DNA of 64,000 nucleotides from Planctomycetaceae bacterium (lineage in GTDB: Bacteria > Planctomycetota > Planctomycetia > Pirellulales > Pirellulaceae), in contig PBOG01000195.1 of the NCBI GenBank assembly GCA_002724245.1, positions 58,904 through 122,903 of the forward strand, given 5' to 3'. A program made the translations under genes and the position numbers. The first letter of the stretch is position 1; each line of letters opens with the position of its first letter. Below the pieces are notes generated by a model. The model did not search any database. It was not told where the DNA came from and was given only the letters and a program-made list of their open reading frames with translations. Shown here piece by piece: positions 47,595 to 55,304 of the stretch.

Positions 47595-47867
47595 TCAGGG
47601 TGTGATTCCTTCCTCCGGGAGCTCGTCGTCATCGTCCTCCTCGAAATCTTCGTCCGAATCGGGAAGTGTGCCAAAGTCGTCTTCGACCCCGTAGTCGTCC
47701 TCAAGCTCTTCCTCAAAGTCATCGTCGAAGTCGTCATCAAAGTCGTCTTCGTCAAAGTCGTCGAGATCTTCCTCGTCGTCGGCCATGACCACGGCTGGAG
47801 ACTCATCCGTTGGTTTCGCCACACCCACCTTTTCGTCTTCCCGAGGAGACAACTCGGTCCGTTGCAT
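47595..47867 (-). CDS. Hyper-acidic small protein (90 aa)
   Basis: ORF with ATG; DDEEDLDDFDEDDFDDDFDDDFEEELEDDYGVEDDFG...; upstream of ileS on same strand. Confidence 0.72.
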   Translation of the reverse strand: MQRTELSPREDEKVGVAKPTDESPAVVMADDEEDLDDFDEDDFDDDFDDDFEEELEDDYGVEDDFGTLPDSDEDFEEDDDDELPEEGITP

Positions 47868-48308: not shown

Positions 48309-48348
48309 AAAAAAAATAGGACAGGCCAGCAAGTTGCATGACCTGTCC
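48309..48348 (-). terminator. Rho-independent terminator: GGACAGG...CCTGTCC stem followed by TATTTTTTTT on minus strand
   Basis: 7-bp perfect outer stem with additional inner pairing, T8 tract immediately 3' on minus strand. Confidence 0.82.
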
Positions 48349-48405
48349 CAACACGGGGGGTTCAATCGGTACTTTCCGGGAGAGCCGATATGCAGTCGGC
48401 CCTTA
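48309..48405 (-). ncRNA. Candidate small RNA, ~97 nt, with own promoter and intrinsic terminator
   Basis: Minus strand: TTGACA(48439-48434)-N16-TACTAT(48417-48412), then structured sequence, ending in hairpin 48319-48348 followed by T8 (48316-48309). Confidence 0.6.
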
Positions 48406-48411
48406 GTTTCC

Positions 48412-48439
48412 ATAGTAGGTGACTGGATTCGAATGTCAA
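48412..48439 (-). promoter_or_regulatory. Candidate sigma70-type promoter of small RNA (TTGACA-16-TACTAT)
   Basis: Perfect -35 hexamer and 4/6 -10 hexamer at 16-nt spacing; spacer holds palindrome ATTCGAAT. Confidence 0.55.
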
Positions 48440-48908
48440 AATAAAAAGCCTGGAGAATTTGGGTAAATATTATTTCGGGCACGGAATTTCTGTTTTCAGT
48501 GGTGCCGGACCGGTTTGCCCCGCAGTTTGTCCTGGTTGCTGGCGAAGTTGCTGCAGGGCCGCCTCACCCACCTGCCAGGGCTCTTTTGTTGCCGCCTCGC
48601 GCCGTGCGGCAATTTTATATTTGAGTCCTGTCGCCAGCAGCTAAAATGGAACCAGGGGCTTTACGCTTTCTGATGTCTTCCCCGGCGGATTACAGACAAA
48701 CGGGTTACAACGTGCTGTGTGGCAGTGCGCAGAGACACGTGGTTTTGCACTGGATCGGGATGGCAATGGTTTTCGCGGTTTATCTGTAGCGGCTTGCTCG
48801 CAGGGTCCGCTCGCGGTTGTCTGCTCCGCACTGAAACCGCAGGTGTCGCGGTCACAAGAGGCATACGTTCGCTTTATCGAACTCACTCGGTATTCCAAAG
48901 GAGCCGTC

Positions 48909-51900
48909 ATGGTACGTCATCACTGCTCGAGCGTGGGAATTTTTTGCTTTGCGCTGTTGCTCGATGTGACGGTACCTCTGCGGAGCCAGGAAATTGGCTT
49001 TGTGGAGTCGTTTGCTCTGGCCCCAGATCGCCAGGTGGCCTTGCGGCAACTGACGCCAGGGACCGAGGACTACTACTACTACCATTGTCTGCAGTTGCAG
49101 CACCTCGAGCAGTTTGGTCGTGTGGAACAGTTACTGGCCGACTGGAGCAGGCGTCATCGCAATTCGTCCCGGATTCGGGAAATCCTGCATCGGCAAGCGC
49201 TGCTGACTTATCCAGAAACTCCGCAAGAAACGCTCCGTTACCTGCGTCAGCAACTTCGAGTCAATCTGTCACACCAACGGGAACGTGTGGGAGCCGAGCC
49301 GAATCTGGCGACGTTGCTTGACCCAGCGTTGCTGACCCGCGCGCAGTGGACGCAACGGGCTCTACAGCGACATCAAAATCTCGCTGGTTTTGAGGATCAA
49401 GCACTGGGTGCGTTGACCGCGGAGCCTTTGAATGCAACCCGCCGTCGTCACTTGCTGGCAAGGTTGCAACGCCCGGACCACCCAGGCCTGGTCGACCTGG
49501 TGGTCGAAGATCTGAATCATCCGACAAGCAAGGGATTCGGTTCACTCGGATTGCACAAACTCCTGTTGCGGTCTCAGTTAGAAGCCTGTTTGCGACAGAA
49601 GTCCGAATTGTTGAATCAGGCCGGATTTGTCGAGGCATATGTACGTAAGCTATGGCCGAATCCGGACACGGATTGGCGACATGACACGGTGCAGCGGGAG
49701 GCCTACCTCGACCGGCTGTGGGCTTTCGTCTCCCGCTTGGATCCCGTGCACAATTCACTACGGGCGCACGTCGCGTATCACCGATTGGTAGTTGATCGCG
49801 CGCGGGGAGTTTATGACAAGGAGCAGTTTCGCCAGTACGTGCGTTTACCGCGCAATGTGAATTACATTAACCGTGACTTCCTGAAAACAGGGAATCGTGC
49901 ACGCCACGCGGCGAACTTGAAACAGGAATTTCGACCGCTAACCTTGTTGCCTCCGATTGGCAACGACGAGCCGCTGGTGCGCAGTTATTTGCAGTCGTTG
50001 TTGCTCGAGGCACCTGACTATCAGGAGTACGAGGCGTACCTCGACGACGCCTATCTGAAGCGTGTATTTGCAGAAGTCAAAATTGTGCATGGAGTGGGTG
50101 ATGCCGAACAGTGGGTATCGCTGCTCTCACCAGGCCAATACGAAGAACTCAAGCAGCGGGTGGATCTCGATTTTGCTTTTACCAACAAGCAGCAGTTTGC
50201 CGGGCCCGAACCGGTGCAAATCGACATGTATGTGAAAAATGTCGATAAATTACTTGTCAAGATTTATGAGGTCAACACGCAGAGTTATTACCGAGAGCAC
50301 GGGAAAGAGGTCGACACCGATTTCAATCTGGATGGTTTGGTCGCGCATCATCGGCAACAGTATGAATACAAGGACCCCGCTTTACGGCGCGTGGTGCGCC
50401 ACTTCGATTTCCCTCAGCTCGATCAGCCAGGTGTTTACGTCGTTGACTTCATTGGCAACGGACGCAGTAGTCGAGTTGTCGTTCGCAAAGGCCGTCTGCG
50501 ATATGTGATGCGCAATAGTACGGCGGGACATGTGTTTACGGTCCTCGATGAGAACCATCAGCCGGTTCAAGATGCGCGTTTGTGGATGGCCGGTCGGGAA
50601 TACAAGCCCAGGGAAGATGGGCACATCGTTACGCCTTATGGCCAGCGTGCCGGACGCCTTCCGATTGTGTTGTCGCACGGAAATCTCGCTTCGTTGGCAC
50701 AGTTGCAGCACCGACAAGAAGAGTATCAGTTGCGGGCTGGCATCTATGTCGACCGAGAATCGCTGGTGAGTGGTCAGAACGCGCAGGTGCTGGTCCGCCC
50801 TGGGTTGTTTCTCAATGGCGTGCCGGTCACGTTGTCGATCCTGAAAGATCCTGAGTTGGTGATTACATCTCAGGACCATGACGGCATCTCGACAACCCAG
50901 ACGGTGAGGCCATTTGCGCTGTTTGAAGACCGTGAGTCCGTGCATGAATTTCGCGTGCCCCCGCGGCTGTCCGAGCTGCAGTTTACGTTGCGCTGTCGGC
51001 TCAAGAATCTCTCCCGCAATCGTGAAGAAGATCTCTCTGTGGATACTTTATTCACGGTCAATGGAATCAGCACTACAGATAAGACCGAAGACCTGCATCT
51101 GGTGCAGGCGGCAGAAGGATATTGGATGGAATTACGGGGGCGTAATGGTGAAGGTTTGAGCCAGCGGCCTGTCCGGCTGGAAATCAAACACATCGATTTT
51201 CGAGATCCACTGAAGGTGACATTGAAGACTGACCCACGGGGGCAAATCGAGCTAGGTTCTCTCGACAAGATTGAACATATCCAGGGCGAGGGCCCGGAAG
51301 GGACTGCACGGCAATGGGTGTTGCGCGGTGCTGCTGATCGCCGACACCAGTCGATTCATGGCGCCGCTGGCGAGACGATTGAACTGATAGATCAGGTGGT
51401 TGGTGGGGCTCCGCTGCAGCCACCCCGTCGGGCCGACTATTCCTTGCTGGAAATCCGTGGCGACACCTACGTGACGGACCGATTTGAAGCCTTGAAACGA
51501 GTGGCCGGCGCGCTGCGCATCGAGGGACTACCGGCAGGAGATTATGACCTCCTGCTGAAACGGACTGGACAGCGGATTCAGCTGCGCGTTTCCGAGGGAG
51601 TCCGTCGCGAAGACTATCTGTTGGCAGACCAACGCTACCTTGAATTGCGTGGGCAACGTCCGCTGCGGATTGTTGCGTTAGAGGTGGGGGAGCAAGAGGT
51701 TCGCATTCAGCTTGGTGAGGTGACGCGTTTTGCCCGCGTTCACGTTTTTGCGACTCGTTATCAGCCAGCGTATTCGGCGTTTGACCATTTGGCGCGGGTC
51801 TACGATGCGGAGCCATTGAGGCGCCGTCTGGCTTCTCTGGAAACACGTTATGTTCAGGGCCGCATGATCGGTGATGAGTATCGGTATATCCTCGATCGAC

Positions 51901-54900
51901 GCCAGGCACGTAAATTTCCCGGTAATACGTTGCGGCGGCCCAGTTTGTTGCTCAATCCTTGGCCCATCGGTCAATCGAAGACCCGCCGCCAACGGGCCCG
52001 CCAGGGAGATGACTTTGCAGCTGCGGGTGATACGGCAGCCGAGTCCGAGGCCAAGGATGAAGCGCAGCCAAAAATGGGGGGAGGGCCCGAGGCCGAATTC
52101 TCCAATCTCGATTTTCTTTCGCAGGGTACGGTTGTCCTGACGAACCTCGTTCCCAACGAGCAGGGTGTGGTCACCATCGCGCGCGATCGCCTGCAAGGCA
52201 AGCAGCAGTTGCACGTGCTCGCCATCGATCCGCGCGGGACCAGCTATCGCTCAGTGGCGTTGCCACCACGGCCAGCGCCGCAGTTGGCCGATTTGCGGCT
52301 GACGCGCGGTCTGGATCCACTGCAGAACTTCACCCAGACCAGGCCCGTCACGAAACTTGCTCCTGGAGAGACTCTGGAAATTGCCGACTCGGCGCAGGCG
52401 AAACTCGAATCTTACGACAGCCTGACCAAAGTGTTTCAGTTGTGGGAGGAATTGTCGGCACCGGCGGACCTGCAGTTTGTGCTGAAATGGCCTGCTCTGG
52501 ACAAAGAGCAAAAACGCGCGCGTTATGCCAAATACGCTTGCCATGAACTGAACTTCTTTCTGTTTCACAAAGACCGGCCCTTTTTTGACACCGTGATTCG
52601 GCCGTTTCTGGAGAACAAACGGGACAAACAGTTTGTCGATCGCTGGTTACTGGGCCATGATCTGGGCGGGTATTTACGACCCTGGCATTTTTCCCAGCTT
52701 AACGTACTGGAACGCGTTTTGCTGGGCCGTGCACTCCCGGAACAACGTGCCAGCCTGACGCTGGATCTCAGGCAGCGTCAGGCTTTGGTTGTGACGGATC
52801 CGGACCATCTTGATTACCTGTTTGACGAGGCAATCAAGAGTGACGATTTGAATACGCAAGGCCTGGCCTTAGGCCTGGGCGGCATGGGTGGTGCTGGAGG
52901 CTTTGGTGGCGGGATGGGGGGTGGCGCACCGGGTGGGGGTGGCGGGGGCTTTTTCGGCGGCCCGCCGACTGCTCCCAAGCCGGGTAACGCAAACGGAAAA
53001 CCTGAGCCGCGGGCAAAGGAGAAACGTGCCAGTAACCGATCGCGCCGCAAAGCAACGCCCGGCGCTGCAGCCGCGCCACCCCAGTCGCGCGCCGCAGACA
53101 AAATGGCGGGGGGTAAGGCCGGTGAAGTCGCGAACGGGGCGCGTGCTGCGGGACGTTTTTTCCAGGAGGATCGCCGCGGCCGTCAGGTCCGGCAGTTGTT
53201 TGAATCGATGGACAAAACCCAGGAGTGGGTTGAGAACCACTACTACAAACTTCCCGTATCAAAACAGGCGGCGGACCGGATCGAGATCAACCGCTTTTGG
53301 GTGGATTATGCGGAACATGATCCGCAGCAGCCCTTCGTTTCCACCCATCTTGCGGAAGTTGGCGAGAGTCTTTCCGAACGTCTGTTTGCTTTGGCAGTAC
53401 TCGACCTGCCTTTTGTCTCGGCGGAGCAGGAAGTGGTGTTGGCTGACGGAAAAATGACACTCACTGCAAATTCGCCTGCAGTCGTGTTTCACAAAGAGAT
53501 TCAACCTGCTGCAGTACCGGACAAGGTGACGCGTCTACTGGTCAGTCAGAACTTTTACCGTCAGGGTGACCGCTATCGCTACGAAGACGACGTCCAGCAG
53601 CAACGCCTCGACAAGTTTGTTACCGAGGAGTTTCTGGTTGGTGTGCCGTATGGTTGCCAGGTCGTGGTTACCAACCCGACGTCCGCACCCCAGAAACTGA
53701 ATCTGCTACTGCAGATTCCTGCAGGGGCGATCCCTGTTTTGCGGGGCGATTATACGCGTACCGCGTCGATGGCCCTGGGGCCGTTTCATACCGAGACCGT
53801 GGAGTATGCATTCTATTTCCCGGAGGCCGGCAAGTTCGCGCATTTTCCGGTGCATGTTTCGCGTGATGGGCAGTTGCTGGCGACGGCCGCGCCATTCCAG
53901 TTTCACGTGGTTCCCAGTCTTACCAGACAGGATACCGAATCCTGGGCCTATCTCTCTCAAGAAGCAGAACCGGCGCAGCTTTTGGCCTATCTCAGTCAAA
54001 CTAATTTGCACCGGATTCCACTGGAGCAGATGGCCTGGAGAATGCGTGACCGGGACTTCTTCCTGCAGGTTATTGAGCTGCTTTCGGCGCGTCACGTCTA
54101 CGATTCGACGCTCTGGTCGTACGCACTGCTGCATAACGTGCCGTCTGCGATCAGGTCGTTCTTGGCGCATCAAGAGGACTTCATCAAAGTCTGTGGCGCT
54201 GCGCTGGAAAGTCCCTTGATCGAGGTAAATCCGGTGGTACGCAAAACCTATGAGCAGCGTGACTATCGCCCCTTGGTGAATGCCCGCCGGCATGTGTTGG
54301 GAGGCCGTCGCCAGATTCAGAATCAGCAACTGCACGCCCAGTATCATCGTTTACTCAAGGTGCTCAGTTATCGCAAAACGTTGAACGACGATGACCGAAT
54401 GGCGGTGGTTTACTACCTGTTATTACAAGATCGGATTGCCGAGGCGCTCGACTTGTTTGCAGCGGTGGATCCCGAGAATCTGCAGACTCAGGTCCAGTAC
54501 GATTACTTTACTTCTTACCTGGCTTTTTTCTCTGCAGACCCGCAGACGGCGCGCGAGGTAGCGGACCGGTACGTTGATTTTCCCGTTGCCAGTTGGCGTA
54601 ACGCCTTTGCGGCGATCCGCAGCCAGTTAGAGGAGTTCGAGAGTGGCCGGGTGCAGCTGGTCGATGGAGAGGACCGTGGTCAGCGGCAAACCGAACGGGC
54701 AGCCCGTCAGCCGGTACTCGACTTTACCGTGGAAGCACGCCAGATTCGCTTGAATTATCGCAATCTGGCGGAGGTACGCGTGAACTACTACGAAATGGAC
54801 ATTGAACTGATGTTCAGCACCACGCCTTTTGTCCGCACTTATGATGAAAGCTTGAGCTACATTCGACCGAATCACACACAATCCGTGGAGTTGCCGCGCG

Positions 54901-55304
54901 ACCGGTCTACGTGGGAAATGGAATTGCCACCCGAATTACACAATCGCAACCTGTTGATCGAGATTGAAGGGGATGGACAGCGCCAGACGCAAACTTATTT
55001 TGCCCACAGTCTGGACGTCCGGTTGTTCGAGAATTACGGACAGCTGCAGGTGTTGCAACAGCGGGAAAAGCGGCCGCTTTCCACCGTCTATGTCAAAGTG
55101 TATGCCCGTCTCAAAAACGGCCAGGTGCGGTTCTACAAGGACGGGTATACCGATCTCCGTGGACGGTTTGATTACGTGTCACTGAATACGAACGACCTGG
55201 AGCAGGTAGAGAAGTTCTCGGTCCTGCTGTTGAGCCCCGAGCAGGGCGCTGTGGTCCGGGAGGTAGCACCTCCTCGGCGCCCGGTCACACCGGTTCAACC
55301 GTAG
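48909..55304 (+). CDS. Very large exported protein (~2130 aa), MG2/alpha-2-macroglobulin-like N-terminal features, hypothetical
   Basis: Uninterrupted ORF; start chosen at MVRHHCSSVGIFCFALLLDVTVPLRSQ (signal peptide); YVKNVDKLLVKIYEVNTQSYYREHGKEV resembles MG domains; Gly-rich linker. Confidence 0.88.
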   Translation: MVRHHCSSVGIFCFALLLDVTVPLRSQEIGFVESFALAPDRQVALRQLTPGTEDYYYYHCLQLQHLEQFGRVEQLLADWSRRHRNSSRIREILHRQALLTYPETPQETLRYLRQQLRVNLSHQRERVGAEPNLATLLDPALLTRAQWTQRALQRHQNLAGFEDQALGALTAEPLNATRRRHLLARLQRPDHPGLVDLVVEDLNHPTSKGFGSLGLHKLLLRSQLEACLRQKSELLNQAGFVEAYVRKLWPNPDTDWRHDTVQREAYLDRLWAFVSRLDPVHNSLRAHVAYHRLVVDRARGVYDKEQFRQYVRLPRNVNYINRDFLKTGNRARHAANLKQEFRPLTLLPPIGNDEPLVRSYLQSLLLEAPDYQEYEAYLDDAYLKRVFAEVKIVHGVGDAEQWVSLLSPGQYEELKQRVDLDFAFTNKQQFAGPEPVQIDMYVKNVDKLLVKIYEVNTQSYYREHGKEVDTDFNLDGLVAHHRQQYEYKDPALRRVVRHFDFPQLDQPGVYVVDFIGNGRSSRVVVRKGRLRYVMRNSTAGHVFTVLDENHQPVQDARLWMAGREYKPREDGHIVTPYGQRAGRLPIVLSHGNLASLAQLQHRQEEYQLRAGIYVDRESLVSGQNAQVLVRPGLFLNGVPVTLSILKDPELVITSQDHDGISTTQTVRPFALFEDRESVHEFRVPPRLSELQFTLRCRLKNLSRNREEDLSVDTLFTVNGISTTDKTEDLHLVQAAEGYWMELRGRNGEGLSQRPVRLEIKHIDFRDPLKVTLKTDPRGQIELGSLDKIEHIQGEGPEGTARQWVLRGAADRRHQSIHGAAGETIELIDQVVGGAPLQPPRRADYSLLEIRGDTYVTDRFEALKRVAGALRIEGLPAGDYDLLLKRTGQRIQLRVSEGVRREDYLLADQRYLELRGQRPLRIVALEVGEQEVRIQLGEVTRFARVHVFATRYQPAYSAFDHLARVYDAEPLRRRLASLETRYVQGRMIGDEYRYILDRRQARKFPGNTLRRPSLLLNPWPIGQSKTRRQRARQGDDFAAAGDTAAESEAKDEAQPKMGGGPEAEFSNLDFLSQGTVVLTNLVPNEQGVVTIARDRLQGKQQLHVLAIDPRGTSYRSVALPPRPAPQLADLRLTRGLDPLQNFTQTRPVTKLAPGETLEIADSAQAKLESYDSLTKVFQLWEELSAPADLQFVLKWPALDKEQKRARYAKYACHELNFFLFHKDRPFFDTVIRPFLENKRDKQFVDRWLLGHDLGGYLRPWHFSQLNVLERVLLGRALPEQRASLTLDLRQRQALVVTDPDHLDYLFDEAIKSDDLNTQGLALGLGGMGGAGGFGGGMGGGAPGGGGGGFFGGPPTAPKPGNANGKPEPRAKEKRASNRSRRKATPGAAAAPPQSRAADKMAGGKAGEVANGARAAGRFFQEDRRGRQVRQLFESMDKTQEWVENHYYKLPVSKQAADRIEINRFWVDYAEHDPQQPFVSTHLAEVGESLSERLFALAVLDLPFVSAEQEVVLADGKMTLTANSPAVVFHKEIQPAAVPDKVTRLLVSQNFYRQGDRYRYEDDVQQQRLDKFVTEEFLVGVPYGCQVVVTNPTSAPQKLNLLLQIPAGAIPVLRGDYTRTASMALGPFHTETVEYAFYFPEAGKFAHFPVHVSRDGQLLATAAPFQFHVVPSLTRQDTESWAYLSQEAEPAQLLAYLSQTNLHRIPLEQMAWRMRDRDFFLQVIELLSARHVYDSTLWSYALLHNVPSAIRSFLAHQEDFIKVCGAALESPLIEVNPVVRKTYEQRDYRPLVNARRHVLGGRRQIQNQQLHAQYHRLLKVLSYRKTLNDDDRMAVVYYLLLQDRIAEALDLFAAVDPENLQTQVQYDYFTSYLAFFSADPQTAREVADRYVDFPVASWRNAFAAIRSQLEEFESGRVQLVDGEDRGQRQTERAARQPVLDFTVEARQIRLNYRNLAEVRVNYYEMDIELMFSTTPFVRTYDESLSYIRPNHTQSVELPRDRSTWEMELPPELHNRNLLIEIEGDGQRQTQTYFAHSLDVRLFENYGQLQVLQQREKRPLSTVYVKVYARLKNGQVRFYKDGYTDLRGRFDYVSLNTNDLEQVEKFSVLLLSPEQGAVVREVAPPRRPVTPVQP
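52860..52978 (+). repeat. Glycine-rich low-complexity linker inside the giant ORF
   Basis: Encodes GLALGLGGMGGAGGFGGGMGGGAPGGGGGGFFGG. Confidence 0.85.

Follow-up and report, generated by a model that had tools for sequence, protein, structure and literature searches.

Positions 48309-48406 of the window (the whole stretch of planctomycete DNA analysed here, 64,000 nucleotides long) very probably contain, on the minus strand, a real stand-alone small RNA (sRNA) gene, as judged from its sequence and that of its relatives. The gene is a member of a conserved planctomycete family, and its product probably acts in trans, with a C-rich seed that would not depend on Hfq. Here, we describe the predicted parts of this RNA, the family to which it belongs, and the arguments for and against the possible modes of action. 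The features of the locus are as follows.

48434-48439, minus strand: -35 box TTGACA, read from the sequence and identical in the same-genus genomes G001 and G002
48412-48417, minus strand: -10 box TACTAT (within CTANNNT), read from the sequence; many relatives have CTANNNT at a set distance from the C-run
48309-48406, minus strand: predicted small RNA of about 98 nt (fold z-score, three same-genus genomes, covariance model)
48381-48403, minus strand: predicted 5' hairpin (hp1) of 8 bp, with compensatory changes in three species and a pairing probability of 0.998
48367-48378, minus strand: predicted small second hairpin, CGG-AAAGUA-CCG, from the minimum free energy fold
48351-48366, minus strand: unpaired AUUGAACCCCCCGUGU, a putative antisense seed that contains the family core CCCCCCGUGU
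48317-48350, minus strand: predicted intrinsic terminator hairpin of 15 bp with one bulge (fold; covariation across 35 members)
48309-48316, minus strand: terminator T8, read from the sequence

Along the minus strand, the elements run in the order TTGACA, a 16-nt spacer, TACTAT, a segment that begins GGAAACTAAGGGCCGACTGCATATCGGCTC, then CCCCCCGTGT (48360-48351), and finally the terminator, whose T8 reaches 48309. The promoter given in the preliminary description, TTGACA-N16-TACTAT, is present base for base at 48439-48412; it agrees with the consensus at 10 of 12 positions and is the sole promoter match in 1.5 kb (shuffled sequences average 0.7). The 5' end of the RNA is deduced from the -10 box (about 48402-48406), and the 3' end from the T-run.

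For the 102-nt RNA, the predicted folding energy is -37.2 kcal/mol, which gives z = -3.7 relative to dinucleotide shuffles; the predicted fold consists of the 5' hairpin, the tiny second hairpin, the unpaired AUUGAACCCCCCGUGU and the 15-bp terminator, in that order. The stop hairpin had been described as a 7-bp stem followed by T8; the T8 is there, but the stem is longer than thought, with 15 pairs and one bulge. The letters of two 5' stems that were supposed to compete, GCCGA/TCGGC and ATCGG/CCGAT, are likewise present, but the competition is not, and with it goes the proposed switch-like pattern: a fold constrained to AUCGG/CCGAU is 4.9 kcal/mol less stable, the predicted probabilities are 0.002 for this stem and 0.998 for the 5' hairpin, and in the sister species G001 the alternative stem lacks a partner. 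The most informative part of the RNA, overlooked in that description, is the unpaired CCCCCCGUGU, which is the element that defines the family. Its predicted probability of being unpaired is 0.72-0.99 in the window copy, and the C-run is only about half unpaired in the predicted mean over family members.

Promoter, 5' hairpin, C-run and terminator are all kept at the syntenic position in G001 and G002. Within the genus the -10 box reads TACTAT or TAGGAT, and hardly any change is seen in CCCCCCGUGU or in the terminator across the three genomes. The 5' hairpin varies in sequence and keeps its pairing: of the eight pairs, two carry changes on both sides and four are invariant, a covariation that comes from three sequences and is equalled by the shuffle control in 60 of 500 cases. 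By eye, the second hairpin also shows two pairs changed on both sides (CGG/CCG in the window, CAA/UUG in G002), and it is absent in G001. The minus-strand open reading frame that crosses the locus, METKGRLHIGSPG, had been judged non-coding, and the relatives agree: the frame stops inside the RNA in G002 and is disrupted by 2-nt indels in the third species, and a coding reading was rejected for this lack of conservation.

How far does the family extend? Judging by gene content, the taxonomic family is probably the Pirellulaceae or a planctomycete family close to it. A first covariance model, covering the whole RNA and built from the three species, returned weak matches; what most of these had in common was limited to the C-run with GUGU and the terminator, and these two parts were thereby recognised as the family core. 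The 5' hairpin was also tried as a search core and rejected; a pattern scan of the genome contigs gave 19 unrelated matches, and the sequence of this hairpin is not conserved. Searching with the pattern CCCCCCGTGT-N26-50-T6 brought up 16 additional loci in the taxonomic family that have genuine terminator hairpins, plus two in f17, a second family of the order, while the reversed control gave almost no matches. The 3' core was then given a covariance model of its own, trained on 21 sequences (alignment A5), in which CCCCCCGUGU is invariant but had been required by the search pattern; close variants of it occur in the further members that the model found. The taxonomic family is represented by 241 genomes, of which this model matches 131 at E<=0.05 and 124 at E<=0.001, spanning 47 of the 68 genera, and about 105 of the matching genomes lie outside the training set. 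There is one match per genome, except for weak second matches in two genomes. The 3'-core model left over 100 of the 241 genomes unmatched, and its strict filters may miss divergent copies. We conclude that a conserved, usually single-copy sRNA family is predicted in at least half of the genomes of the taxonomic family. The preliminary description had proposed that an unannotated gene for a small RNA lies here, equipped with a promoter and an intrinsic terminator, and had named conservation or covariation in relatives as a check; syntenic copies, a family recognised by a covariance model and the covariation of the terminator (see below) bear it out strongly.

Of 392 genomes drawn from the phylum, three had matches at E<=0.001, one of them beyond the order, so that the sRNA family appears to be mainly confined to this lineage. 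The match outside the order (L137:1501-1566, E = 1.2e-4) is a possible distant relative, and its locus has a promoter-like TTGACT-N17-TATCTT, GGCTTTCTCCCC and a terminator.

About 50 member loci were examined for shared parts. Most have a motif close to GGCUUUCUCACCCCCGUGU immediately 5' of the terminator; one clade has UUAAGCGUCCCCCCGUGC in its place, and the genus of the window has GGCUCUCCC, then an insertion, then CCCCCCGUGU, a shortened form of GGCUUUCUCACCCCCGUGU. The flanks of the motif vary among clades, while CCCC-GUG is constant. Among 35 members, seven of the eight modelled terminator pairs have changed on both sides and 95% of the cells are paired, with 44 cells of double change against 7.9 in shuffles and 1 to 3 in slid versions of the stem; the alignment was fitted to the model and leans towards structure, and the first MAFFT alignment agrees on seven of eight pairs. 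A stable 5' hairpin is predicted in this genus and in the majority of the other members that were read, across many clades, not all. In genus g42 (L042-L050), the loop of this hairpin often holds GGA, a CsrA-like motif, as seen by eye.

Evidence for a promoter extends beyond the genus as well. Of 53 members, 29 have a CTANNNT box 43-78 nt 5' of the C-run, compared with 2.2% of control windows, and TTGACA-N16-TANNNT recurs in family f17 as well as in several genera besides that of the window. The search for a full -35/-10 pair was weaker, with a value of 0.05 or less in only 10 of 52 members, since in most of them no -35 box can be recognised; the -10 box alone is clear. At the other end of the gene, (C)GTGC(GC) follows the T-run directly in many members (for example L044, L052, L120 and L133), and TGC or TGG lies within 5 nt of the terminator T-run in 26 of 52 members, against 8% after other T-runs; the window copy has no such sequence. 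Both the CTANNNT and the post-T-run patterns were picked after the sequences had been viewed, and the members are related, so the p-values are optimistic. Locus L077 (about 1501-1650) also has clustered CCCCCCGTGTATTCACGGGGGG-like palindromic repeats, which are unrelated to the sRNA.

The family is uncatalogued, in that it has no Rfam entry: Rfam 15 gives no match at the gathering cut-off for the window or for 14 further member loci. The small SRP RNA and 6S RNA, which are stable, resemble the predicted RNA in being small and single-copy, and an identity with either was considered and rejected by covariance models. Bacterial small SRP RNA (RF00169) has no match at the locus, in line with the earlier remark that no 4.5S SRP apical motif is seen, and the only match of the genome lies elsewhere (G000:C35:26001-26093); the same holds for 6S RNA (RF00013), with its only match at G000:C215:11507-11705. 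The best sub-threshold match, the Bacillus sRNA ncr1241 (RF02451), likewise has a small hairpin followed by a terminator hairpin, but its score of 16.5 bits falls short of the cut-off (60 bits), and with E = 6.3 it is at chance level. The Rhodopirellula-1 motif, reported from Planctomycetes by computation (Weinberg 2010, PMC2864571), was compared by description only; as described in that report, it differs in being likely cis-regulatory, in occurring also in Proteobacteria and in apparently having no Rfam number.

The closest functional parallel comes from the Firmicutes, where RoxS uses its C-rich regions to pair with targets rich in G and Hfq is generally not required (PMC5419742). The planctomycete RNA shares with RoxS/RsaE its short length, a predicted exposed C-rich stretch and an apparent independence of Hfq; it differs in having a single CCCCC(C)GUG element adjoining the terminator, and in its phylum. 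RoxS/RsaE gave no Rfam match to the window sRNA, either at the gathering cut-off or at E<=10. Hfq was found in none of 30 relatives by a search that does find it in controls. With its own promoter, an intrinsic terminator and no fixed cis gene, the predicted sRNA is of the trans-acting intergenic kind. Considering the conserved single-stranded C-rich element, the lack of a detectable Hfq and the resemblance to RoxS, we infer that it acts in trans by base pairing, and pairing through the C-run is somewhat favoured as the mode of action. The sigma-70-type promoter would give a transcript of about 98 nt that runs from a 5' hairpin through an exposed C-rich stretch to an intrinsic terminator; the 5' hairpin may shield the 5' end, and the terminator hairpin may stabilise the 3' end. 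The exposed stretch, which reads CCCCCCGUGU in the window and usually GGCUUUCUCACCCCCGUGU in the family, would pair, with no need of Hfq, with short G-rich mRNA sequences, most likely around ribosome binding sites, and would thereby lower translation or alter mRNA decay, as RoxS/RsaE do in Firmicutes.

A search for targets of the C-run, covering long complements and the gene starts of the window, found no conserved one. The genome itself shows no excess of the complement AACACGGGGGG (85 sites, against 89 for the reversed control), and looking for near-perfect complements in five g42 genomes recovered mainly the sRNA gene itself. Target prediction against neighbouring genes had been suggested as a check, and the pairing turned out to be not specially good: RNAduplex gave no signal over 31 gene starts of the window, one gene (25208, plus strand) reaching -23.4 kcal/mol, which is unremarkable for 31 tests.

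The main rival to base pairing is that the RNA binds a protein, with GGCUUUCUCACCCCCGUGU or CCCCCCGUGU serving as the site for an RNA-binding protein or for RNA polymerase, which would be sequestered or modulated as by 6S or CsrB; we regard this as possible and distinctly the less probable. The conserved motif can, at about 18 nt, be longer than a plain seed needs, and this could also mean protein binding. Its persistence across 47 genera, nearly always in single copy, points the same way, as do the lack of enriched mRNA complements, the failure to find Hfq in 30 relatives and the GGA loops of some g42 members. Against it, however, a true 6S RNA is encoded elsewhere in the genome, the window copy has no GGA loops, repeated binding sites like those of CsrB are lacking, and the flanks of the motif vary by clade while CCCC-GUG stays constant.

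A role in cis is improbable. The sRNA lies between a divergent giant open reading frame (48717-55304, plus strand; 2195 aa, no Pfam-A match) and, in its own orientation, an acidic open reading frame of 90 aa that is followed by ileS, identified by its synthetase domains in Pfam. Perhaps, then, the hairpins act on the downstream operon as a leader or attenuator, with ligand-controlled read-through; the two share a strand, and ileS is also nearby in other genera (g77, g39, g5 and g71, for example). However, the T8 is 442 nt from the next same-strand open reading frame, no antiterminator was seen, and Rfam gives no T-box or other leader match. Moreover, the neighbours in the g42, g59 and g73/g75 clades are other genes, often on other strands: protein-kinase-like in g42, aldehyde-dehydrogenase-like in g59 and deacetylase-like in others, as named from reading translations. 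Since the neighbours differ between clades, a leader role for ileS is unlikely, and such variation fits a trans-acting gene. The very acidic 90-aa open reading frame itself (47595-47867, minus strand; DDDFDDDFEEELED) has no Pfam match and is conserved in the same-genus genomes (62-90% identity), and similar acidic frames occur in other genera.

The bleakest reading, that an ordinary terminator and a chance promoter produce an RNA with no function, draws on promoter and terminator scans that are near chance when each is considered without comparative data, but is hardly credible given the conservation, the covariation, the near-single-copy presence over 47 genera and, as was noted at the outset, the absence of any minus-strand gene upstream that would need the terminator.

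Very few sRNAs have been catalogued in the whole PVC group (eight in table 1 of PMC9029176). A near-single-copy sRNA that spans 47 genera, has no Rfam entry and occurs in hosts apparently without Hfq offers a handle on post-transcriptional regulation in planctomycetes. More tentatively, the RNA may be a lineage-wide, Hfq-independent regulator, core to the family, whose C-rich motif controls many mRNAs or binds an RNA-binding protein. If so, it would be such a regulator in a phylum where regulation by sRNAs is nearly unexplored, and one that can be traced beyond the taxonomic family.
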